This document shows positions 3,173-41,910 of a DNA stretch of 64,000 nucleotides, one piece after another. The position numbers were made by a program, and so were the translations under genes. Below the pieces are notes generated by a model. That model was not told where the DNA came from, ran no database searches, and was given only the letters and a program-made list of their open reading frames with translations. The stretch comes from Bryopsis sp. KO-2023 (Eukaryota; Chlorophyta; Ulvophyceae; Bryopsidales; Bryopsidaceae). Each line of letters starts with the position of its first letter. Position 1 is the first letter of the stretch. The stretch covers positions 3,286,001-3,350,000 of the forward strand of contig BSYQ01000002.1 of assembly GCA_030272585.1 (NCBI GenBank), written 5' to 3'.

Positions 3173-3864
3173 TGTCAACATTGAGATTTAGCTTGTAGCG
3201 TTTGGAATAAGCAATTGTCGGGCTTCTTCCACATTCGGTTTTGAGAACGAGAATCCACCACCGCTGCTTCTCTTCCTCTTTGTAGATTTAAAGTTCTAGT
3301 TTGCGTGTCTAACTTTTCCACCCTACAGTTTTCTTCACGCCTGATAGTGAAGTGGTTTCTGCTATCGATCAGCCTCCCATGCTGCTATTGGTGCCTTGAT
3401 ATGTTTGTTTTGGTTGTAGCGATGACCTCTCGTGTTTAATTAGTATTCGACTATGTCGGGACGTGTCCCCCCAACCAACTAAATCAATGTTGCTGTCTGC
3501 GGACATTGTTCGGCCAACTCGGCCCCAATGTTCTCTAAAGTATTCTTTCTTGCTAGATAAATACGTAAGCTTGCTCCTCGAACGAAACACTTGTGTATCA
3601 AGATCGTCTCTTGTGCACTCTTCTTTATCAGACGATATCTCGCTTGTAAATCGATTCAATCAATTAAATTTCGACTTTTTATTAGAAGGGGGTGTTTCTC
3701 TGGGGCGACTTCAACTTCGACTTCAACAAAAGTCGAAGTGGAACCCCTATTGTGGATATGAGCAAAAAAGAAAACGAGGAGAGAGCGGAAAATTATTTTG
3801 TTCGATCCCTGGAACATCTCCGTCCATGTATTGCGAACTTACTCTCGAGGTGCCAAATGCAATA

Positions 3865-5406
3865 AAGGATTGCGCCCGCACCATATGCATAGTGGCAGGT
3901 AATTGGACGTTCCATGTGTACAAACCCTATAAGGGGGTTTTCTTCCTTCTCGATGAAATCAGATATAACTCTCATGAAAATGATCTAACGTCATAAAATG
4001 TGCATACAAAGGCGAAAACACCATTTGCCTAACGGTGGGTCTTGCAAGATGTCTAGCAAATCTTTCCATTAACCCAGAGCGATGCATAAGGTGCGCACCG
4101 GGTGCGTTTACTTAACTTAGGATCTTTGTGCGCCAACGCACAAAGATATACGTCCCAAATTAAGTATAACAAGTGAATATTGAGTTTGGTCACCTTCCAA
4201 TACCCATGCCGATGGTTTTGCTGTTCTTGTTATACACACATGTGCTCAAGTGGAAGTTGTGGCTATAAAAGACTTTCAATGTCTATTACTTATATTTGCA
4301 TGATTGCATTGCACATCAAACTTTATCGCCCCTATTTAGTGGTGTAGACTCCCAAAAGGTTACTGATCTCTATCAACTATGCGAAGATAGGTTATTATCT
4401 TTTTCAATAAATACAAGTCCCTACGTGTAAGTCATGTCAACCTAAGCGGGAGAAATTGTTGAGCAAATGTTTTCCAAGTCATGGTTTGTAGTAGGTTGTA
4501 TGTAAGCAGATGGTCTTTAATTAGTTTCTTCAATGTGAGCAAAATAGTTGCGCAACTCATAGCAAAATACAGCGAATAGGCGTGCCTTTCGAGAATTGAT
4601 TCATCTTCCTTTTAGGCGAAGGTAATGTGCAACACAAACCCTGACATATCCAGCCTATCACAAGTCTCTCCTCACATAGTGCCAAACATAATGCCACAAA
4701 TCAAGCAATGATCACACCATGAACCCCTTGGCGTGGAAGGCTCCTCCTCCACGAGAGTGTGGGGGATACATATACATATATATGTGTGTCATTTTCACTT
4801 CAACATGCCTCATATGATAAAATCTATCAGTCCTATGCCCCTCTACCCTTGATGTGGTCTCCTTCTCTTTTGGTACAGGCCGAAGACTCATCACCATAAC
4901 CCTTAACATCTTCCCCCCTTAGAAGGAGGCGATTTAGCCGTGTCCAGATGCGAAAAAAACTCACCCGAAGCATACCTTGATTATATTCTCCTTTTCTACT
5001 CGACTCTTTGTCTCATGTTGCAAAATCCTATAAGCAATCCTCTAGTTGAAAGACGGTGAGTTTTTTGCAACGTTGTAACCCGACTATACCTTTGATATTT
5101 GTCGGTAGGTCGTGTATTAAGGAAACTTATCTACTCCGAACCCCCCTCCAAGCAAAAGTTTACATCATCACCTCGTTTCACTCTTATCACTTTTCCGGAA
5201 ATTTCAAGAGTGCTTCTGAACAAACCTAATCAAGAAGACGCCCAATTGATGTAAGTTCTCAAGGGAATCTATCTACCTGTCTTTTGTTCTGGTCATCATA
5301 TAGCCGTAATCTGCTTTTCATTGTCTCAAGTTTCAGCCCAGAATATTCGTTCAAACATGCTTGCCACCTTGCAAGTCGCCTAGTTAAATTAGTTTAAGCG
5401 AAATAG
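3865..5406. other. Non-coding DNA within the left repeat arm
   Basis: No gene was recognised. 4060-4450 is the dispersed repeat shared with 59560-59950. The remainder holds only short, unconvincing frames. Confidence 0.5.
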
Positions 5407-6363
5407 TTAACGGTTGGTAGTCAACCCTGGCAACTGCCTCTCCCCCAGAATGTAGCAGCGGATCTTCTTGAGAGTGTCAATCAACGCCAAAGCTTCCATT
5501 TCCGTGACTGAATAGTTTCTCTCCGCCTTTGTGAAATTGCTGCTATGAAATAGAACAATACGTTCGTCCCAATTCTTATCGATCGGGGAAAGAACCCTTC
5601 CCAACGCCTCGTCGCAGGCGTCAGTATCCACCAGCCAAGCTTGGGAGTAGTCGGGCGCTTCCAGAATTGTGGTGGTCGTTAGTTCCGACCGCAAGTATAA
5701 GAAACTATCTAACTAAAAAACTAACTACGTATATCCCGTTTGTCTGAGAAACTTCTTAACGCCGCTTCCGTTCATTCCATGCTCCTATGCGCCATGTTGT
5801 GCGATGATCGCGCCTTTCTCGCAAAGTTCTTCATAAACCGTCAACAATACGATGCCAGGCGAAGAAAGATCACCATCTGCGTTTTCGTGACCGGCTTCGG
5901 ACAATTCGCCAACTTCTCGACTTTCAGTTCATCGACCCCCAGCCCATGCTCCGAAAGTGTGTTGTCGATGAAGTTGGTCAACGTAAAGCCCACTTCGCAC
6001 TTCCATGGTTTAGGCCTTAGCTTGAACATCCGCACCCTCTCCAAAATAATCTTCAGGTGACCCGGGATGTTCTCTACCCGGACGTCACAAGCGCAGAGGT
6101 CATCCACGAACACGGCCAATCGCGGAACCCCACAAGACGCGTCGTCCATCATCCTCATGTGGACAAAGGGAGAGTTTTGAAGGCCGAAAGGCATTCGCTT
6201 CCACTGGAAAACGCCGTAGGGCGTAAGGAACGTCGCTAAAACACGTAACGGTTTCGCTACCTCTTAACTCGACTTCATGAGAAATGCTTGTATCGAGAAG
6301 CACTTTAACATGATCTGGAAGGAATATATCGTTCCTATGCGTGACCCTAGTAAACAAATCCAT
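5407..6363 (-). pseudogene. Decayed Ty3/Gypsy pol fragment (RT and RNase H)
   Basis: Read on the minus strand, the upstream part contains a reverse-transcriptase signature: Met-Pro-Phe-Gly-Leu-Gln-Asn-Ser-Pro, then Val-Phe-Val-Asp-Asp at the YVDD-like active site. It continues into a thumb-like stretch. The downstream part (5407-5694) contains the RNase H region with an Asp-Thr-Asp-Ala motif and the Tyr-Ser-Val-Thr-Glu-Met-Glu-Ala-Leu-Ala segment typical of Ty3/Gypsy. It is an old broken copy with several breaks. No LTR could be assigned. It belongs to the same repeat as the integrase fragment at 58.2-59.0 kb, which keeps the other half of pol. Confidence 0.8.
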
Positions 6364-6912
6364 TTACATCATTTCCTTGTCGTGTATTTCGGGAACTTTG
6401 TGATGTAGACTTTAATAATGTTTCACTTTGAAACATTTAGTTTCTTTTCGTTTAACTTTTCACAATTCACTTAACAGACCATTGAATCGTATCTAACGAA
6501 CATGTGTGAGTGTCTATGAATTCGTCGATCGCAAAAATAATCAATTTGTACCCGTGGAGCTCTTCAGATTCAACAGCGGCAACTTCTTTAAGGAGATCTT
6601 TTATTGTATCTCTTTTTTAATGATTCAACTCCTCGATTGTTCCATATGCTTCCGTTTAAAGTTCAAACTTTGATCCCAAGTGCGTTTATGATGCTTTCTC
6701 ATTTGTTGACTTGCCTTGCTCGTCCTCTTCTTGCCTTCCGGAAGTGGTGAGCGTCTTTCGATAAGAGGTCGAAAAAAACGAAAGAGGACCATTTTGTTTT
6801 CGCAACTTATGTTCCTTAAAAAGGTTTAGTATATTTTCACCAACGATCGATGAAGAAGAAAATATAGTAGTAGTTCCCTGGGTGGCTCATCCTGGGATAG
6901 GTGGTGTCGCTG

Positions 6913-9033: not shown

Positions 9034-9385
9034 TATATCGTATGATGATGAGCAGTCATGGGCTGCACAGGACAGGGTTCTGTGCGGGTTCTGTGCACCC
9101 TGTGCTGTCCTGTCCTGTTTTTCGAAATTCCACAGGCTAGAACAGAACAGACTGTCTGTTCTGTGCACAGGTCGGACCTGTGCTGCACAGGTGCACAGAC
9201 TGCACAGCACAACACAGAACTGCACAGAATCTGCACAGAATGTGCACAGAGTTTGCACAGAAACTGCAAAGACTGTGCACAGACCTACACAGACTTTGCA
9301 CAGACCTGCACAGACTTTGCACAGACCCTGTCTGTGCTGTGCTGTACAGGTCTGTGCACCTGTGCAGCACAGGTCCGACCCTGTG
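9034..9385. mobile_element. Left part of a CACAG-array foldback element
   Basis: From about 9064 the DNA is an array of GCACAG/CTGTGC words (for example TGCACAGAC and TTTGCACAGACC) on both strands. The outer edge carries CATGGGCTG (9057-9065). The same word occurs reverse-complemented at 19530-19538 with CAGGACAG beside it, so both ends belong to one inverted-ended element that the chromovirus at 9386-19478 split. The long open frames crossing this array arise from its low complexity and are not genes. Confidence 0.65.
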
Positions 9386-9805
9386 TGATAGTGAAGCTTG
9401 TGGGTGACGCAATAGTGGTCGGCTGTGTTGATTGGATTCGTGATAACTTGCTGGCTAACGCAAGTATACTTGTGGGGTTTGTTGGTTTAGACAACTCTCT
9501 AGCTAGCGCGGTTGTGAACGCTACTAGAGCACTTGGGTTGGGAAGTGATTGCGTCAGGCAAACACTTAACACACACACACACAAACACACACACAAGCGG
9601 GAACACACCAATCCCACGAATCCCGAGTTCTTACAAAATAAAGTGAACGTCAAAACAACGAGTGGGCCTCTTAAGTACCCCTAAGTGTAGTACGCTGACG
9701 CATGCCCCAAACTCTGGGTCTAATCTGTCTTACTCGCGAACCCACATGCGTCAGCCACCCTCGGCTCTATCCCAAACTACCTCGTATAGCGCTAAAAGAC
9801 TAACA
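9386..9805 (-). repeat. 3' LTR of the 9.4-19.5 kb chromovirus
   Basis: 420 bp, TG...CA ends (TGTTAGTC to CACTATCA on the element strand). It carries a CA-rich microsatellite and ends next to the CTGTG target duplication. It is identical by eye to the LTR at 19059-19478. Confidence 0.95.
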
Positions 9806-9824
9806 TACGCCCCCCCCGCAAAAA
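9806..9824 (-). other. Polypurine-tract-like sequence
   Basis: On the element strand a G-rich run (GCGGGGGGGGCGTA) abuts the 3' LTR directly. This is where the plus-strand primer lies in LTR retroelements. Confidence 0.6.
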
Positions 9825-10000
9825 GTGGGCGCCCACGCACACCAAAACACAAAGAAAAACAAAAATACAAAAACACAAACACAAAACTCACCCACTCCCA
9901 TACCCACACCCAACTGTCTTGGACCTGTCTCTTGCTCTGACGTCTCTGACAGTTGCTGCACGCACACACTTGGTCGACGATAACTCCTTTTCCCTCCTCC

Positions 10001-11815
10001 TTAACGCTGTTCCGGCGCTTGCGCTTGCTGAATAGCACGCTGCTCCTGCGCATGCGCTTGCTGCACTGCACGATACCGGACACAGGGATCAAATGCGGCA
10101 GCCACCCTCTTGGACTTAAGGAATGGCAGATCCCTTGTGATGCCGGACACTTTGAGCTGCCGCTTCACACACATGTTGCAGTGTGGCAACTTCTCGTGCT
10201 CAGCCGGGAACGGAGGGATTTCTTCGAACGTCGAGCGTGTCAGCTTCAACATATGGGCAGGTAGAGAGAATGGGGAGACGGTGGCGATGGACTTGTTGTC
10301 CACTTCCGCGACTTTTTGGACCGCCGTGACGATGCGCCCCAGCATCGAGTATGCCAACCAATGAGCATCACACACGAGGTGATACCCACAAGGAAGGACG
10401 GAATACTTCTTCTGCGTCAGCCGCTGAGCACTTGCTTGCATTGGGCTTCTCCCGCACCAAATGCACATGGGCAACTCGTGAAAGTGCCGGTTGCCGCGGT
10501 AATTTTGCAAGGCTCGGTCCCTGGGGTTAGTATATTGGACCTTCGGCCATTTCTCTGACGCAGTGATGGGGTTGCAAGCCTCCTCGATATCCTCCCGTGA
10601 CAGGTTCACTTCGCTGGGTGCAGCATCCACTTTGTCCTGAGCAGCCGCCCTTAGTCTTCTGAGCTTAACCTTTTCTCGGAAAGCCCGAAGTGCTGCTTCT
10701 GTTGGAGCTAACTCCAACGGTGGATGGACCGCACGCTGAACCTCTGTCACCTGGCTTGGCCCTTCATCATTCCTTATTTCCCCGTCCTCCAGTTCAGAAC
10801 TAGGACCTTCGAGCCTAGGAGGTGGACTGCCGAAGTCAATTTCTTCGTTAAAATCCAAGTCCAAAAGCTCCTCCTCTCGCATGTCGAATAAGTCCTCCCC
10901 CGGTGCTATTGCGGTAGCCTCCTCTCCGGGAGTCTGAACTGTTGGCGCTGGTTGTGAGGGTGCTGGAGTCTTTAATGCGGCAGCCTTTAACTTGAGTAAC
11001 AAGTTGGCTCTTGCTGCATCTCCAGGCATACGATCCCTCGGTGGCTCACCACCTTCATCGTCACCGTCCTCTCGCCTTCTCTTTCCGTGTGGATCTTCAT
11101 CCCTACACGGCGAGCTTGGGCGTTTGTTTTTCCCTTTCCCCTTGCCCTTGCTTGAGCCTCCCGCATCATCGTCCTTGGACGGTTCCAGATCAAGTGTTGC
11201 GTTTGACAACAGAACTTGGACTTGGCGATCCAGTTCTTCACGTACCCGTGGTGCTGGTACCGCCGGGTTCAAACGCAGCATCTTGTCCGTTGTTTCGCTC
11301 TGCACTTGAAGTTTTTCAGAGCCGTCTCTGAGGGACTCTCCCAGCAAATCGATCTGCAGCTCTTGTTCTGCCAATTCCTTCTTAAGGTTGTTGGCTGCTG
11401 CACTCCACGCGGTTGCTACAGCTCGCTGCAGCGTTTCCTCTACCGCGGTAAATCGATCCACCATTCCCCCGAGAGCTTGCTTGCGGAGGTCATTCTCACG
11501 ATGGTTAGCCATCATGTGAGATTGGAACCGCTGCTTCTTCAGCTTCATGGCTTCCAATTTTTCTTCCAAGACCTTAGTCTTGTCCTCCGCTTCTTTCTTT
11601 TCCGCCTCCGCCTTATCCTTGGCTTTTTCCGCTGCCTCCTTCGCAGCCTCAGCTGCTTTCGTCCGGTCACTCAACTCTGCGAGCTGCCGGGTTAAGGCCT
11701 CATTGTTCTGCAGCACCTCCTCTGCGGTCGTAACAAAGTGCTGCAGCTCCTCTTCTTTTTGAGCTACCTCCGCTTCCAACCTCGCAATAATTGCGGCGGG
11801 TGTGTCGGCAGCCAT
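10001..11815 (-). CDS. ORF3, coiled-coil/Cys-His accessory protein of the chromovirus
   Basis: A 604-codon ATG-started frame in sense orientation between pol and the 3' LTR. Residues about 10-160 are a charged, Ala/Glu/Lys-rich coiled coil. The middle is acidic and Pro/Ser-rich with a Lys/Arg cluster near residues 225-255. Near residues 447-490 a Cys/His motif reads C-x2-C, then C-x2-H-x2-C-x2-H-Trp, and a further C-x2-C follows near residue 546. No signal peptide or membrane segment is apparent, so it is not an envelope protein. The same layout recurs at 39852-41600 and in remains at 23357-25342. I do not recognise the family. Structure suggests an oligomeric zinc-binding protein; a role in the element's cycle is inference. 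Confidence 0.85.
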   Translation of the reverse strand: MAADTPAAIIARLEAEVAQKEEELQHFVTTAEEVLQNNEALTRQLAELSDRTKAAEAAKEAAEKAKDKAEAEKKEAEDKTKVLEEKLEAMKLKKQRFQSHMMANHRENDLRKQALGGMVDRFTAVEETLQRAVATAWSAAANNLKKELAEQELQIDLLGESLRDGSEKLQVQSETTDKMLRLNPAVPAPRVREELDRQVQVLLSNATLDLEPSKDDDAGGSSKGKGKGKNKRPSSPCRDEDPHGKRRREDGDDEGGEPPRDRMPGDAARANLLLKLKAAALKTPAPSQPAPTVQTPGEEATAIAPGEDLFDMREEELLDLDFNEEIDFGSPPPRLEGPSSELEDGEIRNDEGPSQVTEVQRAVHPPLELAPTEAALRAFREKVKLRRLRAAAQDKVDAAPSEVNLSREDIEEACNPITASEKWPKVQYTNPRDRALQNYRGNRHFHELPMCIWCGRSPMQASAQRLTQKKYSVLPCGYHLVCDAHWLAYSMLGRIVTAVQKVAEVDNKSIATVSPFSLPAHMLKLTRSTFEEIPPFPAEHEKLPHCNMCVKRQLKVSGITRDLPFLKSKRVAAAFDPCVRYRAVQQAHAQEQRAIQQAQAPEQR

Positions 11816-12263
11816 TATGTTTGTCGGAAAGAAAGAAATAACAACGGTTTGTGCGTCTTTAGACTCTTTTCACTCAGGAGCTCGCTCCGTTTACACAAAC
11901 ACTAGGGCAAAATGGTTCGAGGGCTGCGCTTATAAGGCTGGGTGACTCGTACACTTTCCTCGTTGAGTTATTGGGGTGAGACACCAACGTTTCGTTCGGT
12001 TGGAGTCTCGTCAAGACCACCTCAACACGTCACTTGATAGGGGTTTTCTCGGAACAACCACACTATCTCGAATGTGACATCGTTTGCCCGGTTTCTAAAG
12101 TACTACTGAAGCTACACTTATTGCGCCAGCCAAATAACTTAGGCACCTAACGCATTAAAGTTAAAGAGTTGGTTTGGAAGTCGACAGAGTTTTTCTAAGG
12201 TATCCTTTTTCGCGCCCCCTTGCAATAAGGAGTTCCACCTTAGCCATCAAACACTCTGTTTCC
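11816..12263 (-). other. pol-ORF3 spacer
   Basis: A 448-bp non-coding spacer inside the chromovirus. No clear promoter or splice signal for ORF3 was recognised, so how ORF3 is translated is open: spliced RNA, internal promoter or internal entry. Confidence 0.5.
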
Positions 12264-15200
12264 CTATTCTCTTCCTTTCTGCAACTCTTTTCTTTCTTTC
12301 TCTTTAAATGCGCGAAGTATATCTGGTGCGTTAACCAGATTAGCTTCAGGTTCCCAAGTAGCGTCAAGTAGATCGTATCCTTTCCACAGCACTAGGTATT
12401 CACGATTGCGTTTACCTCTAGCCCTTAGGATATTTTCGACCTCATACTCTACTTCGCTACCAATCAACTCTCCTTCTGGAGGTTGTATTTGCCTGCTGTT
12501 ATCACTCGAGGCGTGATAACGCTTGAACTTAGAAACATGAAACACTGGGTGAATGAGCCATGTTTCCGGAAGTTGAACTCTGTAAGCCACCTTTGATATT
12601 TTCTCCACAATTTCAAAGGGACCCACAAATCGACGGCGCAGTTTGGGACTCACTTTGTTCAAAGCAGCCAACGGAATAAAACGGCTTTTTATCAGGACTT
12701 TATCCCCTTTCTCAAAAGCAATATCTTTCCTCTTCTTGTTTGCACTCACACACATTCTGTGTTGTGCTCTAGAGTAATATGCTTTTGCGGTATCTAAGTC
12801 CTGTGCCATCCGTGCTACCATAGTCTTAACTGCTTCCACTTGAAATTGCGTTGCCGTCCCACCAATGTTTGGTGTTTCTGGATGGTACCCATACATCAAA
12901 TATGCAGGTGCGAACCCTGTACTCGCATTCACTGCATTGTTTGCTGCAAACTCTGCTGTAGGTAAATACTCAACCCACTTATGGGGATACCTCTCAGCAT
13001 ATGGCCTTAAGAAATTTTCCAGAGTACGTATGGTAACCTCACTCTGCCCATCCGTTTGAGGGTGGTAAGCTGTACTCATACGAATCTCTGTACCCAGAGC
13101 TTTAAAAAGCGTCTGCCAGAACTTGCTGGTAAAGCGAGGGTCTCTATCAGACACAATCACTTTAGGTAGGCCATGGTTGCGGTAAACATGTTCGATAAAA
13201 AGTTGGGCGTATCCTGCAGCGGTAATCTCTTTAGTACATGGGGCGAAATGCACAAACTTGGTAAGTCTATCGACAAAGACAGCTACAGCACTAAACCCAT
13301 TGGATGCTGGTAGATCTGTCACCAAGTCAGTGGTAATCTGCTCCCACTTCCGCTCAGGTATTGGCAGGGGTTGAAGTAAGCCCATAGGCTTCTGTGTGTC
13401 AGCCTTTATTTGTTGGCACACAGGGCATTCGCGAACAAATGCCTTCAACTCATTCATCCACCCCTTCCACCAATATCGCCGCGCTAGGATTTCTCCTGTT
13501 CGCGCTGGTCCTGTATGGCCTGCTGAAGGTGTCTCATGGCACTCCTTCATAATCTTATTGCGCTGGCCTTTAGGAACCACCACTTTCTCGACTAATCCTC
13601 TCTTTGGGACCGTCCAGAGTATTCCCTCTCTGAGGAAATATCCCTCAACTTCCTCGCCACTCTCAAGCTTCCGCAATATCTTCACCAAGGAGTTATCAGC
13701 TTGGAGGGCTTGTTTCCACTCGTCTTGGCTTGCTTGATGCACTTGCCAAGTGGAAATGTTCATCGCAGTTTCCACGGGCTTAGGAACACTGCGGGAGAGA
13801 GCATCTGCTAACACATTAGCCTTGCCTTTGATATAGGAGATCTTGGGGTTGATCGAAGTCAGGTACCCCGCCTCAAGCCATCTTGCTTGGGTTCTAGAAA
13901 GGTTCCTCTGCGACAGAATATGCGTCAGAGGTTGGTGGTCAGTGAACACTGTTACTCCACCCGCACAACCTTCTAGATAATGTCTCCACTGCACCATCGC
14001 ATAACATATTGCACACAACTCTTTGTCGTATGGTGCATAGTTAAGCTCGGCAGGCTTGAATCTACGTGAGAGGTAAGCTATTGGCTGTAGCCCCTCTCCG
14101 TGATCCTGTGTTAACACGGCACCGATGGCCTCATTCGACGCATCAGTGATCACAGTGTAAGGCAGTGACGCATCTGGAAAAATAAGGACGGGAGCTTGAC
14201 TTAGACGCTTTTTCAGTTCATTGAATGCGCCACGCTCAACCTGTCCCCATCTCCAGGGATGGTCTTTTTTCACTAAGTCATGGAGTGGTCCAGCAACATG
14301 TGCAAACTGGGGAATGAATTTCCTGTAGTATGAAACCATTCCAAGGAAACTACGTACATCGCTAACACTCTGTAGTTCCTTCCACTCCTTCACTGCCTTC
14401 ACTTTTTGTTCCTGTGGTTTTAACCCACTTCCGCTAATGCGGTAGCCAAGATAGTCTACTGTTGCGACAGCCAGCTCACTTTTACTTGCCTTAGCAAAAA
14501 GCTGATATTCTGCTAGTCGCGACAGGACTTTCTCTAAGTGTTCGGCATGCTGTTCCATGTTTTCAGAGAAGATGAGTATGTCATCGATAAAGACAACAAC
14601 AAAATCATCTAAAAACTCTGCGAGTAGGTCTTGCACTAGAGTTTGGAATTGCGCTGGGCAATTGGTTAGCCCAAAAGGCGCTACCAAAAACTCAAAGTGA
14701 CCGTATCTCGTGCGGAACGCTGTTTTATCTGTATCAGATGGCCTTACTGGAAATTGCCAATAGCCTGATCGCAGATCTAACTTTGAGAACACTTTGGCTT
14801 TGAACACTCTATCCATCAATTCTTCTGGCAGGGGTAAAGGATATCGGTTTTTCACCGTCACCTTATTGATCCACCTGTAATCCACACACATCCTTAAGCC
14901 TCCATCCTTTTTCGGTACAAACAGGATTGGCGCGCCCCAAGGGGACTCGGATGGTTTGATTTTCTTCTGTTCCAGAAGGTAGTCCACTTGTGCTTTCACT
15001 TCATCCAGCTCTGCTGGTGAAAGCTTGTATATTGGACGATGGATAGGTGTTGGATCCTCCAGGTCTATCTTAAATTCATGACCTTTTCTCTTCGGAGGGA
15101 TCCCTGGGGGTAAATCACGAGGGAACACACCACGGTGTGTTTCTACCACCTTTTTAATTTCGGCAGGGGTGTCTGAACGAATAAGTTTGCCAATCTCATC

Positions 15201-16004
15201 CTCAGTGTTGAATGGCTGTGTTCGCTCTATTGCGTCAGGCAATTCATGTTGGCCTAAAGCTTTCTCTTCAGACTCTTGCACTACAACCATGAATGCTGTC
15301 TCTGTTTTGAGATGACGCATCATTCGTTTAGCTGAACACTCAGTCACTGGCACTTCTTGCAGTATCGACTGTACTTTTCGTTCAGGTTCAATACTCTCTT
15401 GGGTTGGATGACGCAACGGGAGATGAAACACTTGGCTGTTTTTGCAAACTGAAATCTCATTCTGCTGAAAGTCTATGCGGGGGTTTTCTTTCTGCAACCA
15501 AGGCATGCCCAATATTAGGTCATAACCAAGGTCTGGGAACAGATCCGCTTTCATTTTGCACTTCAGCCCTCCTATCTTTACTCGGAGGTTGTTACAGCTG
15601 CCAGCCAGTTCTTTAATATCTCCGTTTGCCAACATTGCTCTCTTGGAGCTTGGTGTAATCGACAACCCGAGATCACGCGCTACCTTATCATTGATATAGT
15701 TTGCGGTACTTCCACAATCAATGAATGCATAAAGGTCCGTGGTCTTGATCCGTGCTTTTACTTCGTACCCTCTCACAGGCACTTCTTGAATTTTTAACAG
15801 AGGGCATGTGTCACCCTTGGTTGACGAAGTTGATCGAACTTCTGACACATTAACTCGCTCTGTGGTAGACCGCTGGGTTGTTTCTGACCCACTATCGTCT
15901 ACGTCTGCAGGCAGGGACTCCTGTAGACTACTCTGCGACTCCAATGAGCCCACAGATTCACTAACAGAGGGAAGAGATGCAGATGACGCATGAGGCGCGT
16001 CCAT
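12264..16004 (-). CDS. pol polyprotein with C-terminal chromodomain
   Basis: 1246 codons from the first Met; the same frame stays open upstream to the gag slip site at 16271. The domains run as follows. There is an aspartic-protease-like region near residue 95 with a D-C-G-S-T motif shared in form with the 35-kb copy. Reverse transcriptase spans about residues 310-490 with Phe-Ile-Asp-Asp-Ile-Leu near 471. RNase H lies near 620 (Thr-Asp-Ala-Ser). The integrase zinc region (H...H...C-x2-C) is near 830-880 and the DDE core near 895-1005. A chromodomain (about 1185-1235) has Tyr-Leu-Val-Leu-Trp-Lys-Gly-Tyr and Ala-Thr-Trp-Glu-Pro. Chromodomains in this position are known to steer integration to marked chromatin. 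The frame looks whole. Confidence 0.95.
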   Translation of the reverse strand: MDAPHASSASLPSVSESVGSLESQSSLQESLPADVDDSGSETTQRSTTERVNVSEVRSTSSTKGDTCPLLKIQEVPVRGYEVKARIKTTDLYAFIDCGSTANYINDKVARDLGLSITPSSKRAMLANGDIKELAGSCNNLRVKIGGLKCKMKADLFPDLGYDLILGMPWLQKENPRIDFQQNEISVCKNSQVFHLPLRHPTQESIEPERKVQSILQEVPVTECSAKRMMRHLKTETAFMVVVQESEEKALGQHELPDAIERTQPFNTEDEIGKLIRSDTPAEIKKVVETHRGVFPRDLPPGIPPKRKGHEFKIDLEDPTPIHRPIYKLSPAELDEVKAQVDYLLEQKKIKPSESPWGAPILFVPKKDGGLRMCVDYRWINKVTVKNRYPLPLPEELMDRVFKAKVFSKLDLRSGYWQFPVRPSDTDKTAFRTRYGHFEFLVAPFGLTNCPAQFQTLVQDLLAEFLDDFVVVFIDDILIFSENMEQHAEHLEKVLSRLAEYQLFAKASKSELAVATVDYLGYRISGSGLKPQEQKVKAVKEWKELQSVSDVRSFLGMVSYYRKFIPQFAHVAGPLHDLVKKDHPWRWGQVERGAFNELKKRLSQAPVLIFPDASLPYTVITDASNEAIGAVLTQDHGEGLQPIAYLSRRFKPAELNYAPYDKELCAICYAMVQWRHYLEGCAGGVTVFTDHQPLTHILSQRNLSRTQARWLEAGYLTSINPKISYIKGKANVLADALSRSVPKPVETAMNISTWQVHQASQDEWKQALQADNSLVKILRKLESGEEVEGYFLREGILWTVPKRGLVEKVVVPKGQRNKIMKECHETPSAGHTGPARTGEILARRYWWKGWMNELKAFVRECPVCQQIKADTQKPMGLLQPLPIPERKWEQITTDLVTDLPASNGFSAVAVFVDRLTKFVHFAPCTKEITAAGYAQLFIEHVYRNHGLPKVIVSDRDPRFTSKFWQTLFKALGTEIRMSTAYHPQTDGQSEVTIRTLENFLRPYAERYPHKWVEYLPTAEFAANNAVNASTGFAPAYLMYGYHPETPNIGGTATQFQVEAVKTMVARMAQDLDTAKAYYSRAQHRMCVSANKKRKDIAFEKGDKVLIKSRFIPLAALNKVSPKLRRRFVGPFEIVEKISKVAYRVQLPETWLIHPVFHVSKFKRYHASSDNSRQIQPPEGELIGSEVEYEVENILRARGKRNREYLVLWKGYDLLDATWEPEANLVNAPDILRAFKEKERKELQKGRE

Positions 16005-16261
16005 CTCATCCGGTGTGCTTTCCTTCTGTTCATTTTTCCAATCGCAGTTGTCATGTGCCGATTGGGTAGATGTGGAGAGTGTCTCTGTTCTCTCTTCACG
16101 CGGTGTACTAGTCCGCTCCTCAGGTTTTCCGCTGTGAGTACTTTTAACCTTTTTCGAGGCACCTACTTTTGATCTATGCTTCCTACGCCGCCTACGAACT
16201 CTATTTCGCTTACGACGTTTGCGTCGGCCAGGCTCAGACGAAGCAGTTTCCTGCCTGGCGG

Positions 16262-18913
16262 TCAGTTTAACATTTTTTTTACATCGGGGAGGTTTTTCAC
16301 CTCCTCCAGTCTAGGACATTGCCTCACAGGATGACCCTTCTTTCCACAAAGATAACAATTATATCCCCCTCCCCCCTGGGGGTTCTGTCTTCCCTGATTG
16401 GCTTGTCCTCTTCCACGGTTACCACCACCGCGTCCACGTCCACCACCACCACGTCCTCCTCCTCGTCCTTGTTGCTGTTGCTGCTGCTGTTGCACTCCTG
16501 CGGCAGCTTGTGGTGGTGCTTGGGCTGGTGGTGTGGGGTTCTGCTGCTGCTGACCCTGATTCTGGCCTTTCTTCTTTCTTCCACCACGCCAGACTCCTTT
16601 CTTTTTCTGATTGGTTTGCCCTCCTTGGCCTTGTGTTCCAACTCCAAGGGCTTCCAATCGTTCGGCGGATATGATGGCGGCCTCTACATCTCGAGGTACC
16701 GTTGCTGCGACTAACTTCTGAACTTCACTTTTAAGTCCATCCACGAAGAGCAAATACTGGTGATCCTCTTCGAGGTCTGGAATCCTCAAAACTAACCGCT
16801 GAAACTCTTTAACGAACTGTTTCACGGTTCCAGTCTGCTTGAGTTTATGGAGGTCACGCCACGCTTCATCTCGATCACTAGAGAATTCGAAAGCTGTAGC
16901 TAAGCCATCCATGAAGTCCATCCAGTCACGGAAGGGTGGTCTTTCACCTCGGTGAATTTTCAACTCTTGCATCGTTAACCAATCCGAGGCAGCTCCATAA
17001 AGGTTAGTGGCCATAATCGACTGCCACTGTGCTTCATGCACTCCGCAGGTTCTCAAGTACCGCGTCATGAGCACTTGCCATTTACGGGCTTTTGGTTCTC
17101 CACTTCCGTTAAATGCGCGAGGCATTTGCAACTTGACGGTGCTAGGCAACCACTGTCCTTGCCTAGGAGGTCCTGGGCCTGCTGGTCCAGCGCCACCTCC
17201 ACCTCCACCTCCATCAGGAGGTCCACCGGGAGGTCCACCGCCTCCACCATCTCCACCGCCGCCACCACCTCCTCCGCCATCAGGCGCACCTGGAATGCGG
17301 GAAGGTGGGCGGTTTCGTCTGTCGCGGTAATCATCACCGCCATCATCATCTGGGTCGTCATCACCAGGGTCTCCAAAGTTACCTCGCATGCGAGGAACTC
17401 GACTGGGTCCACCAGTAGACTCATATGAACCAAGTGCAGCAAAGGGATTATTTTCTACCCTTGCTCCCAAAGCACTTAACCCAAGTCCCAATCTTCCAGT
17501 ACGTGTGGGGATCTGCATGGGTTCTTTTCCTTTCTCTTCTCTGACCTGTGCCTTAGCACGCTCAAGGTCAATTTGATATAACACTTCTGCTGAGGAGAGA
17601 ACTCTTGGGTTAGTTCGTGTGGGTCTACGTGATCCATCGGCAGAGTCGGGTTCTGAGATGCGTACTCCAGGCTGAGCTCTTGTACTTGGAGGTATCAACT
17701 GAGGGAATGTGAAATCAGCGTCTGGTGCGCTATCCACTGCAGTGCATGGTGGTGCTTCTGCAGCAACAATTTCACCCTCCTCGACCTGTACTGCTGGAGG
17801 AGCCGGTATTGTTGAGGTTCCTGCTCCAACCATTCCCACCGCGAAGCTCTGGTCCAGTGGCGGCCATGATGCAGCCAACTGCTTTACTGATTTCTTCGGC
17901 AGCGGCATTCCAAAGGCTGAGTCCTCAGGCTCAGGGGAAGTTGATTCTTCACGCTCTGGTGATACTGCTCGAGCATCACTTCCACTTTGGGCACTCTGAC
18001 TTCCGCCACTCACATCCTCCATGCTTCGTTCCAGGCCAGATAATCTTAAGGCAACCACATCAGCTGCATCTTGCTGCTGATCCCAGGTTTTGGATGCCTT
18101 TTTCTCCAAGGCAATCAAATCTTTTTGAATTGCTACTCTTGAGCTCTGCAAACGCTTCACCTCAGCACCTTGTTTGTGCAAGGACTCCCGAAACAATTCT
18201 AGAGTCCGTTCGACTTTTTCGTTGGAATCCGCAACAGTTCCTAATAAGCCTTCAATTCTCCGCCCTTGAACAAGGGATAACTCGGAGAGTTGTTTTAACT
18301 GAAGTGCTGATGCTTCAGTTGCTTCTTTTAGGTCAGCAAAACGAGAGTCCGCTAGAATGTCTGCGGCATCCATTCTCCTCGTTATTGCATCCACAGAAGC
18401 TTTGATCTCGGCTCTTTCTTTTCTATGGTCGATATCTTGGCGTAATAGCCTCTGCTCGTATCGACTATGTTGAGCCGCTACTGAATCCAGCTTCTGCTGT
18501 TGCGACACCACCGCATGCTGTGTGGCCTCAACCTGTTGCGCATGCTGGTGCTGTGTTTCCAGCGCCTGCCCGATCACCTCTGATGCGCCAGCCAGTTGGT
18601 TCGACACAGAGGCCTCAGTATGGGCTAGCCTCTGCCCCAGTGTCTGGTCAACTTGCTGCAGGTGACCCCTTAGCCCGTGGGCTAAATCGTCCACACGGTC
18701 ATGGACCGCATCCACATCCTCTCTTAAGGCTTCCGCATCAGCTCCCATGTCTATGTCGACAGCTGCTTGCTGGACATTGTGGATGTTCTGGACGTTTATT
18801 TGTTGGTACACAACATTGGGTGCGTCAGGCAATTCCTCATCGAACTCAGGTTCAATCCCTGGCTCTTCAACTTGAGGCTCGCGCACTGCCAATGCGTGTT
18901 CACGGTCAGCCAT
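16262..18913 (-). CDS. gag polyprotein
   Basis: 883 codons from an ATG about 145 bp inside the 5' LTR. The first 300 or so residues are helical coiled coil rich in Gln, Ala and Asp. A Ser/Pro-rich linker and a long Gly/Pro run (about residues 520-575) follow. The retrotransposon capsid-like domain lies near 580-755. A Gln/Gly/Arg-rich tail ends in a CCHC zinc knuckle (C-x2-C-x4-H-x4-C) near residues 852-865. The Gly-rich and Arg-Gly segments suggest RNA binding. The stop directly follows a GTTAAAC heptamer that phases the ribosome into pol. Confidence 0.93.
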   Translation of the reverse strand: MADREHALAVREPQVEEPGIEPEFDEELPDAPNVVYQQINVQNIHNVQQAAVDIDMGADAEALREDVDAVHDRVDDLAHGLRGHLQQVDQTLGQRLAHTEASVSNQLAGASEVIGQALETQHQHAQQVEATQHAVVSQQQKLDSVAAQHSRYEQRLLRQDIDHRKERAEIKASVDAITRRMDAADILADSRFADLKEATEASALQLKQLSELSLVQGRRIEGLLGTVADSNEKVERTLELFRESLHKQGAEVKRLQSSRVAIQKDLIALEKKASKTWDQQQDAADVVALRLSGLERSMEDVSGGSQSAQSGSDARAVSPEREESTSPEPEDSAFGMPLPKKSVKQLAASWPPLDQSFAVGMVGAGTSTIPAPPAVQVEEGEIVAAEAPPCTAVDSAPDADFTFPQLIPPSTRAQPGVRISEPDSADGSRRPTRTNPRVLSSAEVLYQIDLERAKAQVREEKGKEPMQIPTRTGRLGLGLSALGARVENNPFAALGSYESTGGPSRVPRMRGNFGDPGDDDPDDDGGDDYRDRRNRPPSRIPGAPDGGGGGGGGGDGGGGGPPGGPPDGGGGGGGAGPAGPGPPRQGQWLPSTVKLQMPRAFNGSGEPKARKWQVLMTRYLRTCGVHEAQWQSIMATNLYGAASDWLTMQELKIHRGERPPFRDWMDFMDGLATAFEFSSDRDEAWRDLHKLKQTGTVKQFVKEFQRLVLRIPDLEEDHQYLLFVDGLKSEVQKLVAATVPRDVEAAIISAERLEALGVGTQGQGGQTNQKKKGVWRGGRKKKGQNQGQQQQNPTPPAQAPPQAAAGVQQQQQQQQGRGGGRGGGGRGRGGGNRGRGQANQGRQNPQGGGGYNCYLCGKKGHPVRQCPRLEEVKNLPDVKKMLN
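16265..16271 (-). other. Candidate -1 programmed frameshift heptamer GTTAAAC
   Basis: On the element strand the last two gag codons are TTA AAC, preceded by G and followed at once by the gag stop. The heptamer is therefore phased G-TTA-AAC, as at known -1 slip sites of this type. The pol frame lies in -1 and is open from this point. The same heptamer in the same phase occurs at the gag end of the 35-kb copy. Confidence 0.7.
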
Positions 18914-19044
18914 GGTCTCTCAGCCACTATTTGGGAGGACTCAACAACCACGGTTGGAGTTTCTCTCTACCAAACAAACAAACAAAAACGTTTGTTGCGC
19001 CACGTTCACAAGTTTCGATCTCAAGAACTTAAAGTTCTTGCCTC

Positions 19045-19056
19045 GCTCCGAAACCA
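19045..19056 (-). other. Primer-binding site TGGTTTCGGAGC
   Basis: It lies two bases inside the 5' LTR on the element strand. It is complementary to a tRNA 3' end reading GCTCCGAAACCA. The identical 12-mer at the same spacing occurs at 41899-41910. I could not assign the tRNA. Confidence 0.75.
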
Positions 19057-19058
19057 AT

Positions 19059-19478
19059 TGATAGTGAAGCTTGTGGGTGACGCAATAGTGGTCGGCTGTG
19101 TTGATTGGATTCGTGATAACTTGCTGGCTAACGCAAGTATACTTGTGGGGTTTGTTGGTTTAGACAACTCTCTAGCTAGCGCGGTTGTGAACGCTACTAG
19201 AGCACTTGGGTTGGGAAGTGATTGCGTCAGGCAAACACTTAACACACACACACACAAACACACACACAAGCGGGAACACACCAATCCCACGAATCCCGAG
19301 TTCTTACAAAATAAAGTGAACGTCAAAACAACGAGTGGGCCTCTTAAGTACCCCTAAGTGTAGTACGCTGACGCATGCCCCAAACTCTGGGTCTAATCTG
19401 TCTTACTCGCGAACCCACATGCGTCAGCCACCCTCGGCTCTATCCCAAACTACCTCGTATAGCGCTAAAAGACTAACA
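19059..19478 (-). repeat. 5' LTR of the 9.4-19.5 kb chromovirus
   Basis: 420 bp, identical by eye to 9386-9805, and followed outside by the CTGTG target duplication. Confidence 0.95.
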
Positions 19479-22609: not shown

Positions 22610-22639
22610 AGGTTCATATGCGGGGGGTTCTACAACCGC

Positions 22640-22939
22640 TTGTCCAAAAGTGATGCGCGGGAGGTGGAACCTCCCGAAGGGGAGTTGGTGGATCGCACCA
22701 TCGAATACGAGGTAGGGCGTATTCTGCGGGATCGAGGAGCTTCCAACCGTAGGGAGTACTTGATTTTGTGGAAGGGCTTTGATTTGAAGGAAGCCACCTG
22801 GGAGCCAGAAGCCCACCTGGCCAATGCAAGCGACCTCTTGGCTGAGTATCTGAAAAATCGCATGCGCTTGCCCATCAAAGACGAAATTCGCTCAAAGCAG
22901 ATAAAGAGGCGGACAAGGCGGCTGGGGTTAGCTCTCTAG
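22640..22939 (+). pseudogene. pol C-terminal fragment with chromodomain
   Basis: The frame contains Pro-Glu-Gly-Glu-Leu-Val-Asp, then a chromodomain core with Arg-Glu-Tyr-Leu-Ile-Leu-Trp-Lys-Gly-Phe and Ala-Thr-Trp-Glu-Pro-Glu-Ala-His-Leu. It matches residues about 1285-1345 of the pol frame at 35107-39225. A basic tail follows. It is the end of a larger pol that is no longer present. Confidence 0.85.
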
Positions 22940-23263: not shown

Positions 23264-24695
23264 ATGTCCTCCAAAGCCAACCGCGGAAGTAGTGATGAAC
23301 AGATCACGCGATTGCGGATGGAACGGGGCAAATAAAGAAAGGAAGTAGCGGAAGCCGTGGAGGCGGGCAATAATGCCCTGGCAGCAAACACATGTCTGCA
23401 CCAGCAGTTAGCGGATGTAAACAAGAACGCTCAAGTAGGAGTGATCATCCGGGATGAACTTGCGGACAAACTCGCGGATCTGGAAGCGGTTGTGAGAGAA
23501 GCAGACAAAACCAAAGCGGAAGAGCGGACTAAATTGGAAGCGGACTATCACGAACGATTCTTGAAGGACGCGCGGACAAATATCAAAACACTGGAAGAAG
23601 ACAACCAGACTGTCCGCCAGGAGCTTGCCCGCGTTACATCTGATTTGCAGACCGCTCAGACAACCGCAGAGTCCGCCAAGCAAAATTTGAAGACCGCGCT
23701 AAAAGATAAGCGTTCTACATCGCCGAGAACAAAGAACTGCGTGAAACACAAATCAAGCGCTACCAGGCGCTTACGCAGTGGGACAAGGAGGTGAAGGCGC
23801 TTAGGGCCGAGAAAAAGGCGGACAAACGTCACGAGAGAGCTCGACTCGATTCCAAAATCTTGATGACTGAATTGCTCGCGTCACGAGCACAGACAACAAG
23901 GCTACGCCAAATGGTGACAAACCGCCCACAAGAATTGGCGACGTTTGGGAAAGGCGTCGTCCGTCGTCAACTGGAGACATTGTCCGACCAGGTGGACCTT
24001 TTGCACAAAGGCAAATTTCAAGACGTTGTCGACGTGCACAAGATCAAAGAATTGACGCTCACGCGGGTTAGCTTGCCACCGGCCAACGAGTTGCGAATTA
24101 TCTGCGATTGGGACCAACAGATTGCCCGCGAAGCCGACAAAATTGCTGAGATGATGGCCAAGCCAGATCCCAATCAACCCAAGGAAAGGAGGATTCAGAT
24201 AGCGACGTGGATAGCGGCAAAGACCCAACGAAAGATGAACTTAAACGGAAGGAAAAGGAAGCTGCATAGAGAGCCGCCAAGGCGAAGGCAGACAAAGAAG
24301 CAGCCGCTAAGGCCAAGACGGACAAGGAAGTAGCGGACAAAGCAAAGGCGGACAAAAAGAAAGACACCAAGACGAACAAGAAGAGGTTGCGTCTGTCAAA
24401 GAATGCAAAAGAGCTTCAAGCGGAATTGATCAAACGGCACAAGGTAAACGGTGACCCCAGGCTATACGGACGTACATGTTATCATTGTGCAGGCCGACAG
24501 GTAGGCGTCGGACTCCTGAGTGATTGCCGATTGCACTATGTGTGCCCCAAACACTGGAATCGTCGCCATGTGACCGAGAGGATCATTGCCCGCTGGGTAG
24601 CGGACAAATCAGTGCCGCCACTCCTCATGACCGCGAACCACCTCAAGCTCGGGAAAAGAGCCCAAGACCCCGCTCCCACCACCGCCGACAATTGA
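23264..24695 (+). pseudogene. ORF3 remains (coiled coil plus Cys/His motif)
   Basis: Broken frames carry a Glu/Lys/Ala-rich coiled coil (about 23360-23790). They end with C-x2-C and then C-x2-H-x2-C-x2-H-Trp (about 24477-24563), the same motif as in the ORF3 genes at 10001-11815 and 39852-41600. The residues between the motif elements differ widely among the three copies while the Cys, His and Trp positions agree. The acidic end of this gene appears to continue beyond the nested solo LTR, at about 25175-25342. Confidence 0.8.
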
Positions 24696-24750
24696 CATTG
24701 CGGACACCCTTGTGCTTCCGTGAGTGTGGATGGTGTCCCGTCAGGCTCGG

Positions 24751-25174
24751 TGATAGTGAAGCTTGTGGGTGACGCAATAGTGGTCGGCTGTGTTGGTTGG
24801 ATTCGTGATAACTTGCTGGCTAACGCAAGTATACTTGTGGGGTTTGTTGGTTTAGACAACTCTCTAGCTAGCGCGGTTGTGAACGCTACTTGAGCACTTG
24901 GGTTGGAAAGTGATTGCGTCAGGCAAACACTTAACACACACACACACACAAACACACACACAAGCGGGAACACACCAATCCCACGAATCCCGAGTTCTTA
25001 CAAAAGAATAAGAAGATGTCAAAACAACGAGTGGGCCTCTTAAGTACCCCTAAGTGTAGTACGCTGACGCATGCCCCAAACTCTGGGTCTAATCTGTCTT
25101 ACTCGTGAACCCACATGCGTCAGCCACCCTCGGCTCTAACCCAAACTACCTCGTATAGCGCTAAAATACTAACA
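24751..25174 (-). repeat. Nested solo LTR of the 420-bp family
   Basis: 424 bp, about ten differences by eye from the LTRs of the 9-19 kb element. It is flanked by the 5-bp duplication CTCGG (24746-24750 and 25175-25179). It is antisense to the ORF3 remains into which it inserted. With no internal region it is a solo LTR, slightly older than the complete element. Confidence 0.92.
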
Positions 25175-25469
25175 CTCGGGACAAAGGCCCTCGGGAGGAC
25201 CTTCATAAGCATCCTCCACACAATGTGGGATCCTGAACAGGATATCGACTCAGATGTGGATTATGCTGTTGATGGTGGCGGACAACCTTCAGATGTCGGT
25301 GATGTTGGGGGAAGCGGACAACAGACTGCTGGAGCGGACTAGCTAGCTAGCGCAGCCAGAGCTCAAGACAATAGTTTCAGAAATTTAGTTGTCAGGGTAT
25401 TGTCTTTTCTGCGACGGGTTTGGGTTTCTTTTTCTTTTTTCTTTTCGTATTTTCCAGGGTACGGACACT

Positions 25470-31482: not shown

Positions 31483-31895
31483 TGTTAGTATTTTAGCGCT
31501 CACGAGGTAGTTTGGGATAGAGCCGAGGGTGGCTAACGCATGTGGGTTCACGAGTAAGACAGATTATACCCAGAGGTTGGGGCATGCGTCAGTGTACTAC
31601 ACTTAGGGGTACTTAAGAGGCCCACTTGTTCATTTGACATCTTCTACTTTGTAAGAACTCGGGATTCGTGGGATTGGTGTGTTCCCGCTTGTGTGTGTGT
31701 GTTTGTGTGTGTTTAAGTGTTTGCCTGACGCAATCACTTCCCAACCAAGTGCTCTAGTAGCGGTCACAACCGCTTTAACTAGAGAGTTGTCCAAACCAAC
31801 AAACCCCACAAGTATACTTGCGTTAGCCAGCAAGTTATCACGAATCCAACTAACACAGCCGACCACTATTGCGTCACCCACAAGCTTCACTATCA
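31483..31895 (+). repeat. Solo LTR of the 420-bp family
   Basis: 413 bp with TGTTAGTA...CACTATCA ends, flanked by the 5-bp duplication GTTTC (31478-31482 and 31896-31900). It is more diverged from the complete element than the solo LTR at 24751, hence older. No internal sequence adjoins it. Confidence 0.92.
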
Positions 31896-31900
31896 GTTTC

Positions 31901-32554: not shown

Positions 32555-32592
32555 TGATAAGGGGGTCTAGGACCCCGAGACACAAGCACACA

Positions 32593-32627
<35 letters not shown>

Positions 32628-32678
32628 TCACTGGGAAGATTAATTTTTACAGGAGGGCCCCCTGCCCTATAAACCCTG
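32555..32678 (-). repeat. Inverted LTR fragment at the left end
   Basis: Reverse complement of most of the LTR at 41749-41896, sharing the GGGGTCTAGGACCCCGAGACACAAG-type block, the CA/GA microsatellite and the GGGCCCCCTGCCCTATAAACCCTG-type end. The microsatellite lengths differ slightly between the copies. Confidence 0.9.
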
Positions 32679-32683
32679 AGCAT

Positions 32684-35158
32684 GTGTATGCCGCTGTCTC
32701 CTCGAATGTGCAAGAGGTCGCACAAAACCTGGAAGGACAAGTTCACGAGCAGGTTCAGCGTGCAGAGTCGACCCTAAAAGGCGACCTGAAAGAGGAATAT
32801 GAGCAATTCGTGCTCTATGTCAGGAAGGAGGCCCAGAAGCTGGTCAAACACAATACTGAGTCGATAGAAAGACAACAGAAATTGTTAGACCACCAGCACA
32901 AATTGCTGGAACAGAATATAAGGTCCACAGAGCGGATCGACAGGAATCTGTTGGGTAAATTCGATAACGAGGCTATTCTGCAAGAGCGACTCGATCGGAT
33001 GCAGGAATCAGCCCGTACCCAAGCTGAAACTGTTGAGCAGACCAATGCGCTCAGGGAGAAACAAATTCTGTCTCTGCAAGCCTCTCTGACAAAAGTTGCT
33101 GAAGGCATGCGCCTACAGCAGACAACGCTGGATAACCTAGCTCGGACTACTGATGAGTCTCGGTGCGAGCAAGTCGACCACCAAGGCCAGCTAGACACAC
33201 TCTCAGGCTTGGTAAGCCAGAGCCTAAAAGTGTTGCGGGACTTACACCAAGCCGAAGAACAACGCAAACAAAGAAGAGCGGAACGAGGCAGTGTGAGTTC
33301 TGATGACACTGCAGGAGGACACAGGTCGATGCAACTGATGGAGAAATTTCTATCAGACGCGACAGAGAAACAGCAGACTTTGGAAAGTAATCTCTCCAAG
33401 TATGTTGATTCGAAGTTCAAAGAAACACTGAGTGCGTGGAAAAAACGGGAAAAAGTTCGAGTCCCGGCTCAGGACCCAGTTGTAGTGGGTATGATGGGAG
33501 CAGGAACTGGCACGGTCACTTTGCCGGCCACGACAGCTGCAGCCACAAGCGTTCCTTTTGTGTCATCCACTCCTCTTACCAGTATCCCATTTCCGGTACC
33601 ACCTGTTCCGGATTTGAGTACTTTTACTGGTCTAACCACGTTAGGAGGATTGGGTGGTCGCAGCCCATCGACAACTGTCGCAGACTCCGTGGGTGGAGGT
33701 TCTCCATCTTCCTGGGGTTTATTTACATCCCCAAGAACACGGACGGCATGGAGTCTTGCGCCGCCACAAACTATGGCAATGGGCGCACCATTCGGCCAAG
33801 CGGGTCAACTTGGCACAGCCAGACCCATACTTAGTGCCCCTGTAACGAGTGTGTTACCACCAACGACATCCATGTTAACACAACCACTGACGACAGTTCC
33901 GCTGTCTGTCTTCTATCCAATCCCGGCTCTTAACACCCAACCTGGTATGCAACCAGGAAACCAACCAGGCACCCAACCAAGTTTGGGACAATCCGTAAAC
34001 CAATACGGAGCACCTTCCGCGAGTAACCCGTATTACGGGTGGGGTTCTTATCCCTCAACTCCATCAAGCCAGCCACAGGGTGGAAATCGATCTGGTGGTG
34101 GTGGAGGGGGACCCGGAGGTGGACCTGGGGGTGGAGGCGGAGGCGGAGGAGGACCACCTGGAAGTGGAGGGGGATCTTTCCTTTCCGGACCAGGTGGAGG
34201 TGGGGGTGGTGGATGGCCGTACCACCCAGGTGGAGGTGGAGGTGGCGGAGGTGGAGGTGGGGGTCCTCCAGACCCTAACCAAGGCTTTGCTGCTCCGCAA
34301 GATCGCCACGGACGGATTCCGTCATCCGTTCGTATTCCTTTCCCAAAGGCCTTCTCAGGTGATGGTCAGCGATGGATCAGAGATTGGCAACTAGAAATGA
34401 CGGTCTATTGCCAGACTTTGGACATCGATGAGAGCGTATGGTTCAGGCTCTTCCGCAGTAACCTGACCGGAGCTGCTGCTCAGTGGCGAAACGTCCAGGA
34501 TCTGCGTACAAGGGAAGGAAAAAGACATCCAATCACAAATTGGATTGAGTTTGTTGAGGAACTGGTCCAAGCATTTGAACCCACCAGAATGTCTGATGTA
34601 GCCAGGCGCTCCTTACGGAACCTGAAACAGACTGGGTCCGTGCATCAATACATTGTTGCTTTTCGAGAACAGGTGCTGAGGATTCCCAACATGACAGATG
34701 AAGAACAATACTTCTTCTTCGTGGACGGGTTAAAGTTCCATATCAAACAACAAACTGTGGCTCAAGTGCCGCACGGCATTGAGTTGGCGATTCAGACGGC
34801 GGCTCGTCTTGATGCTATTGCCTCATCCGGAGGAGGAAACTTTCGTGGCCGCGGACGGTGGCGCGGAGGTAAAGGCCGAGGCCAAAATAAAAAGCAAAAC
34901 CAACCCCAGACTGATAAGGCAAACCAGATGGGTGGCCAACAGCAACCTCAGCCAGACCAGGCTCAAAACATTGGCCAAGGTCGAGGTCGGGGACGGGGTG
35001 GTGGCCGAGGTCGCGGACGAGGTGGTGGCAGGAATCAAGGACGTGGAGGTGGAGGCGCAAATCCCAAATGCTATATGTGTGGAAAAACTGGACATATTCA
35101 AAGTAAGTGTCCAGAGGGCGAAAAGTTCAAGAAATGGTTAAACGAAAAAGCCGGATGA
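32684..35158 (+). CDS. gag polyprotein (start region not typical)
   Basis: 824 codons, open from the inverted LTR fragment onwards, with no ATG start recognised. The order matches the 9-19 kb gag: a coiled-coil N-terminal third, a Ser/Thr/Pro-rich linker, a Gly-rich run (about residues 465-530), the capsid-like domain (about 545-720), Arg-Gly and Gln-rich RNA-binding-like segments, and one CCHC knuckle (C-x2-C-x4-H-x4-C) near 803-816. The gag-start-like sequence of this family lies instead at 42643 onward in the partial copy. Confidence 0.85.
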   Translation: MYAAVSSNVQEVAQNLEGQVHEQVQRAESTLKGDLKEEYEQFVLYVRKEAQKLVKHNTESIERQQKLLDHQHKLLEQNIRSTERIDRNLLGKFDNEAILQERLDRMQESARTQAETVEQTNALREKQILSLQASLTKVAEGMRLQQTTLDNLARTTDESRCEQVDHQGQLDTLSGLVSQSLKVLRDLHQAEEQRKQRRAERGSVSSDDTAGGHRSMQLMEKFLSDATEKQQTLESNLSKYVDSKFKETLSAWKKREKVRVPAQDPVVVGMMGAGTGTVTLPATTAAATSVPFVSSTPLTSIPFPVPPVPDLSTFTGLTTLGGLGGRSPSTTVADSVGGGSPSSWGLFTSPRTRTAWSLAPPQTMAMGAPFGQAGQLGTARPILSAPVTSVLPPTTSMLTQPLTTVPLSVFYPIPALNTQPGMQPGNQPGTQPSLGQSVNQYGAPSASNPYYGWGSYPSTPSSQPQGGNRSGGGGGGPGGGPGGGGGGGGGPPGSGGGSFLSGPGGGGGGGWPYHPGGGGGGGGGGGGPPDPNQGFAAPQDRHGRIPSSVRIPFPKAFSGDGQRWIRDWQLEMTVYCQTLDIDESVWFRLFRSNLTGAAAQWRNVQDLRTREGKRHPITNWIEFVEELVQAFEPTRMSDVARRSLRNLKQTGSVHQYIVAFREQVLRIPNMTDEEQYFFFVDGLKFHIKQQTVAQVPHGIELAIQTAARLDAIASSGGGNFRGRGRWRGGKGRGQNKKQNQPQTDKANQMGGQQQPQPDQAQNIGQGRGRGRGGGRGRGRGGGRNQGRGGGGANPKCYMCGKTGHIQSKCPEGEKFKKWLNEKAG

Positions 35159-41748: not shown

Positions 41749-41823
41749 TGTGTAGTACAATGGGATGTACGACAGGGTTTATAGGGCAGGGGGCCCTCCT
41801 GTAAAAATTAATCTTCCCAGTGA

Positions 41824-41858
<35 letters not shown>

Positions 41859-41896
41859 TGTGTGCTTGTGTCTCGGGGTCCTAGACCCCCTTATCA
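41749..41896 (+). repeat. Short LTR (148 bp)
   Basis: TGTGTAGTA...CTTATCA ends, with CT and GT microsatellites inside. It is preceded by a TTTAGGGGTAT polypurine-like stretch and followed after two bases by the primer site. It thus serves as 3' LTR to the left copy and as 5' LTR to the partial copy on its right. Confidence 0.85.
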
Positions 41897-41898
41897 TT

Positions 41899-41910
41899 TG
41901 GTTTCGGAGC
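41899..41910 (+). other. Primer-binding site TGGTTTCGGAGC
   Basis: Identical 12-mer, at the same two-base spacing from the LTR, as at 19045-19056. It marks the start of a second, partial copy. Confidence 0.75.

Follow-up and report, generated by a model that had tools for sequence, protein, structure and literature searches.

Gag and Pol are thought to be sufficient for LTR retrotransposition. In a stretch of 64,000 nucleotides from the genome of Bryopsis sp. KO-2023, here called the window, an initial annotation nevertheless placed a third gene, ORF3, between pol and the 3' LTR of three chromoviruses. The question raised by this locus is what kind of gene ORF3 is, whether it has been kept by selection, and what its protein might do.

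Chromoviral elements and the position of ORF3

Ty3/gypsy elements are abundant in this eukaryotic DNA, and no RNA families or tRNAs were detected in the window. The features of the three elements that concern ORF3 are listed below.

9386-9805, minus strand: 3' LTR of element 1 (420 bp, same as the 5' LTR throughout)
10001-11815, minus strand: ORF3 of element 1 (ORF3-1; 604 aa, intact, sense relative to its own element)
12264-16004, minus strand: pol of element 1 (protease, RT, RNase H, integrase, chromodomain)
16262-18913, minus strand: gag of element 1
19059-19478, minus strand: 5' LTR of element 1 (420 bp)
22631-22921, plus strand: broken pol (chromodomain) end of element 3
23264-25342, plus strand: ORF3 remains of element 3 (ORF3-3; stops, frameshifts and an inserted solo LTR)
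24751-25174: solo LTR inserted in ORF3-3, belonging to the element 1 family and with target-site duplication CTCGG
32684-35158, plus strand: gag of element 2, without its N-terminus
35107-39225, plus strand: pol of element 2 (RT, RNase H, integrase, chromodomain)
39852-41600, plus strand: ORF3 of element 2 (ORF3-2; 582 aa, intact)
41749-41896, plus strand: LTR of element 2; primer-binding site, leader and the N-terminal part of gag come after it, as far as about 43044

Element 1 (9386-19478, minus strand) carries gag and ORF3 in addition to a pol that ends in a chromodomain. Its LTRs are flanked by the target-site duplication CACAG, as in chromoviruses (Ty3/gypsy, Metaviridae), and the chromoviral pol order of protease, RT, RNase H, integrase and chromodomain was found in elements 1 and 2. 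Because the two 420-bp LTRs are identical and have CACAG flanks, we consider element 1 to be a recent insertion. The element lies beside tandemly arrayed CTGCACAGA-like units (9183-9330), and CACAG is part of the repeated unit. Element 2 has an open ORF3 and an open pol but is not complete, because it is rearranged and its gag is split. The left end of element 2 (32555-32678) is an exact inverted copy of the final 124 bases of its LTR, starting from the LTR terminus. This piece is followed by gag without its N-terminus, and the missing N-terminus is located on the 41749-43044 side. With this arrangement, element 2 looks like a circularly permuted one-LTR product, which perhaps originated by self-integration. 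The element 1 family is also represented just upstream of element 2 by a solo LTR (31502-31898), in the opposite orientation and about 94% identical. Element 3 is a wreck, represented by the chromodomain end of pol and the ORF3 remains from 23264.

The placement of two sense genes and one set of remains between pol and the 3' LTR was confirmed: open reading frames were found at the two gene sites, a chromodomain-bearing pol end lies upstream of all three copies, and pol (RT, RNase H, integrase, chromodomain) lies directly upstream of both intact ORF3 genes. ORF3, in sense orientation and located after pol but before the 3' LTR, corresponds to the class of sense additional ORFs (aORF-3S). Pol and ORF3 are separated by 448 bases (element 1), 626 bases (element 2) and about 320 bases (element 3). 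Since ORF3 thus begins 0.3-0.6 kb past pol, it is not expected to be a read-through or frameshift product, and would presumably be made from its own separate mRNA or a spliced one. The intergenic regions preceding ORF3 had no local match above that of shuffled sequences, except for simple GT runs. A promoter-like TTATAAG...CATTTTG-CCT, which visual inspection had suggested ahead of ORF3 in elements 1 and 2, was dropped because the intergenic matches were no better than shuffles.

The ORF3 protein and the constraint on it

The protein regions that we distinguished are as follows.

11260-11815, minus strand: N-terminal heptad-rich region of ORF3-1 (almost Pro/Gly-free; coiled coil predicted)
40239-40469, plus strand: coiled-coil-like region of ORF3-2 (aa 130-206)
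10169-10465, minus strand: predicted zinc-ligand region of ORF3-1, C-x2-C-x21-C-x2-H-x2-C-x2-H-W-x59-C-x2-C (aa 451-549)
41019-41273, plus strand: predicted zinc-ligand region of ORF3-2, C-x2-C-x14-C-x2-H-x2-C-x2-H-W-x52-C-x2-C (aa 390-474)
24477-24557, plus strand: predicted zinc motif of ORF3-3, C-x2-C-x12-C-x2-H-x2-C-x2-H-W
24725-24736, plus strand: last C-x2-C (CGWC) of ORF3-3, in the shifted (next) frame at the expected distance

The N-terminal parts show heptad periodicity with proline nearly absent, and the coiled-coil family matches among the profile hits are confined to them. As the initial annotation had proposed, this heptad-rich N-terminus is joined to C-x2-C...C-x2-H-x2-C-x2-H-W in all three copies. 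The 11-residue core C-x2-H-x2-C-x2-H-W occurs at three sites in the six frames of the window, one per ORF3, and had no occurrence in 60 first-order random windows. A further C-x2-C had been assigned to the two complete copies only. It is present in both, but the restriction did not hold, as the broken copy has CGWC about 56 residues after the Trp (59 in ORF3-1 and 52 in ORF3-2). Because this pair sits at the expected distance after a frameshift, all three copies probably share the frame of eight ligands. An acidic stretch does occur in both complete copies, as annotated, but it lies upstream of the zinc region in ORF3-1 and at the C-terminus in ORF3-2, and is therefore not positionally conserved. 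NLS-like basic clusters (KRPSSPCRDEDPHGKRRR and PKKRK) were also found, a pattern that arises in about 60% of shuffled sequences.

We then compared the Cys/His module with known folds. RING domains follow C-x2-C-x(9-39)-C-x(1-3)-H-x(2-3)-C-x2-C-x(4-48)-C-x2-C. ORF3 shares the order of the ligand pairs and the short spacings, and its first five ligands match this pattern. However, the sixth ligand is His in all three copies, the last loop of 52 and 59 residues is too long, and no E2-contact residues are evident; owing to the sixth ligand and the loop, strict RING membership fails. A strong match of the motif region to a known family was sought in Pfam and PDB and with Foldseek, and none was obtained at threshold: no Pfam profile matched ORF3 at the curated cut-offs, and PDB sequence searches gave no match. 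The sole Pfam hint for ORF3-2 was the sub-threshold zf-RING_5 (0.034; 14.6 bits against a cut-off of 27.9), and CEBP_ZZ, the CPEB-type ZZ domain, appeared below threshold in the broken copy only (0.025; 15.2 bits against 29.8). In AlphaFold models of both zinc regions, which are weak (pLDDT 60-65), two short strands are followed by a helix from the fifth-sixth ligand pair, a strand-strand-helix layout that occurs in RING and treble-clef folds. Foldseek searches with these two weak models gave no match at E ≤ 0.001; the best, obtained with one of them, was the zinc-binding domain (ZBD) 2ds5, which was not significant (E = 2.6). Four consecutive ligands with two residues between neighbours recall the LIM domain, in which the second loop has 16-21 residues. 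The LIM assignment was rejected because the last loop of ORF3 is about three times too long; ligand identity and order also differ, and a helix is predicted in place of the LIM strands. Ligand order and the low-confidence models together point to a RING-like or treble-clef module that is not a RING member.

The sequences between the motif residues had been described as very different, and this proved correct. Between elements 1 and 2, amino-acid identity is 26% in the zinc region (codon positions 1/2/3, 33/51/36%) and 22% over the whole of ORF3 (39/44/32%), in comparison with about 56-57% in pol (61/73/31%). In a single comparison, BLAST aligned ORF3-1 and ORF3-2 with 24% identity over 113 aa (E = 1e-8). 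The two proteins agree at every one of the eight ligand positions and at the Trp, and in the three-way alignment 7 of the 13 invariant columns are the six leading ligands and the Trp. Since silent sites are near their floor and yet both frames of ~590 codons are open, ORF3 appears to have been kept under constraint, in agreement with the proposal of a shared third gene selected for a zinc-binding frame. Judged from two intact genes and one wreck, this constraint is weaker than that on pol and is concentrated on the Cys/His/Trp frame. Because the motif and the BLAST match are shared while pol is 57% identical and third positions are near 31-36%, we infer that the common ancestor of the three chromovirus lineages already had ORF3 as an accessory gene. 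We hold the existence of the gene, its position, the shared motif and its long retention with high confidence. No relatives of ORF3 or pol were found in a viral and a genome contig collection, as would be expected if the eukaryotic host is absent from those sets.

Possible roles and related genes

Plants and other groups provide well-documented cases of additional ORFs located downstream of pol (PMC7264820; PMC5408684). The aORF-3S of LTR retrotransposons share their place, orientation and persistence over time with ORF3, but the plant examples are env-like, some with membrane segments (PMC7264820), whereas ORF3 lacks these and has a Cys/His module. In bdelloid rotifer LTR retrotransposons, a third ORF likewise lies downstream of pol, but the reported ones are env/fusion-protein-like or of enzymatic origin (PMC5408684), unlike the present ORF3. 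The gene had been called undescribed. As regards the Cys/His frame, a literature search, mostly of journals outside subscription, yielded no description, nor one of chromoviral third ORFs with RING, coiled-coil or zinc features. The novelty of the gene itself is not established, because full-length Gypsy elements of fungi were already drawn in a 2010 survey with what its Fig. 3 legend calls an "additional ORF with unknown function" (PMC2864245); these elements are of the same type, and their ORF may or may not correspond to ORF3. Sense extra ORFs at this position are thus known, and the novel part of ORF3 is its unassigned Cys/His domain family.

Our best overall explanation, with a probability of roughly 0.5, is that ORF3 is an ancestral accessory gene for an oligomeric zinc-module adaptor acting in the nucleus. 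The N-terminal coiled coil would oligomerize the protein, and the eight Cys/His residues (CC-CH-CH-CC) of the C-terminal module would coordinate two zinc ions as RING-like or treble-clef folds do and bind a partner. The basic clusters between coil and module may send the protein to the nucleus, and the acidic-hydrophobic stretch could recruit transcription machinery. The adaptor could bind a host factor (chromatin, silencing or ubiquitin) and in this way favour expression or integration of the element. Zinc binding, oligomerization, nuclear site and host target are thus all predicted properties, and the nuclear adaptor role taken alone is tentative. A role in chromatin, silencing or integration would be the most economical, because the protein is putatively nuclear and apparently non-enzymatic and the element already has a chromodomain. 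As a gene kept across lineages with saturated silent sites, ORF3 must pay its way. A possible working analogy, with no homology claimed, is offered by the VANC proteins of Arabidopsis VANDAL transposons, in which a transposon-coded accessory protein counters silencing (PMC5735166, PMC10398659), although VANDALs are plant DNA transposons and not LTR elements.

Several other roles would fit part of these observations. The protein may act in assembly or nucleic-acid handling, the coil joining Gag and the zinc module binding element RNA or cDNA in the particle: the gags of elements 1 and 2 also have long heptad-rich regions that could pair with ORF3, and zinc modules often bind nucleic acid. We consider this rather unlikely, given that gag already carries a CCHC knuckle and the ligand pattern of ORF3 is nearer to the protein-binding RING/treble-clef spacing than to a nucleic-acid knuckle; ORF3 and gag also have no sequence similarity, for which reason an origin of ORF3 as a gag duplicate was rejected. 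An active RING-type ubiquitin ligase that tags a host protein involved in restriction or silencing for removal would account for the ligand order, most of the spacings and the zf-RING_5 hint, and a coiled coil with a C-terminal RING is a common ligase layout. This reading is doubtful in view of the invariant His at the sixth ligand, a last loop beyond the usual 4-48 residues, the lack of Ile/Val between the first two Cys, where E2 contact is usually made, and the absence of a significant profile or structure match.

The two remaining readings are disfavoured. LTR elements are known to capture genes (PMC7264820), and ORF3 could in principle be a piece of a host gene picked up in this way and carried along without function; this is highly improbable, since three diverged lineages carry it at the same place and two copies are open despite saturated silent sites. 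Location between pol and the 3' LTR is what an envelope-like gene would have, but the initial annotation was right to exclude one: neither intact protein has a membrane segment or hydrophobic stretch (top 19-residue mean hydropathy, 1.0 and 0.9), leaving this reading with almost no probability. Returning to the nuclear adaptor, its zinc module, if it binds a host silencing or ubiquitin factor, would give a rare direct handle on the conflict between retrotransposons and host genomes, which the intact, recently inserted copy of element 1 makes testable. It is an unlikely, bolder extension that this chromovirus lineage has long held its own RING-like zinc adaptor or ligase, disabling host silencing or directing the integration complex, as an accessory class not described before.

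Other repeats in the window

The regions 3667-6783 and 57351-63261 share several inverted matches of 81-89% in consistent order and seem to represent two older copies of a different retroelement. The first of these regions contains an RT fragment (5784-6233) that is 35% identical to pol. On the minus strand, a 455-aa open frame at 60596-61963 had no Pfam match and by eye resembles the C-terminal part of a non-LTR retrotransposon. At 49189-49454 there is a MITE-like foldback with 116-base arms, 94% complementary, and a 34-base loop.
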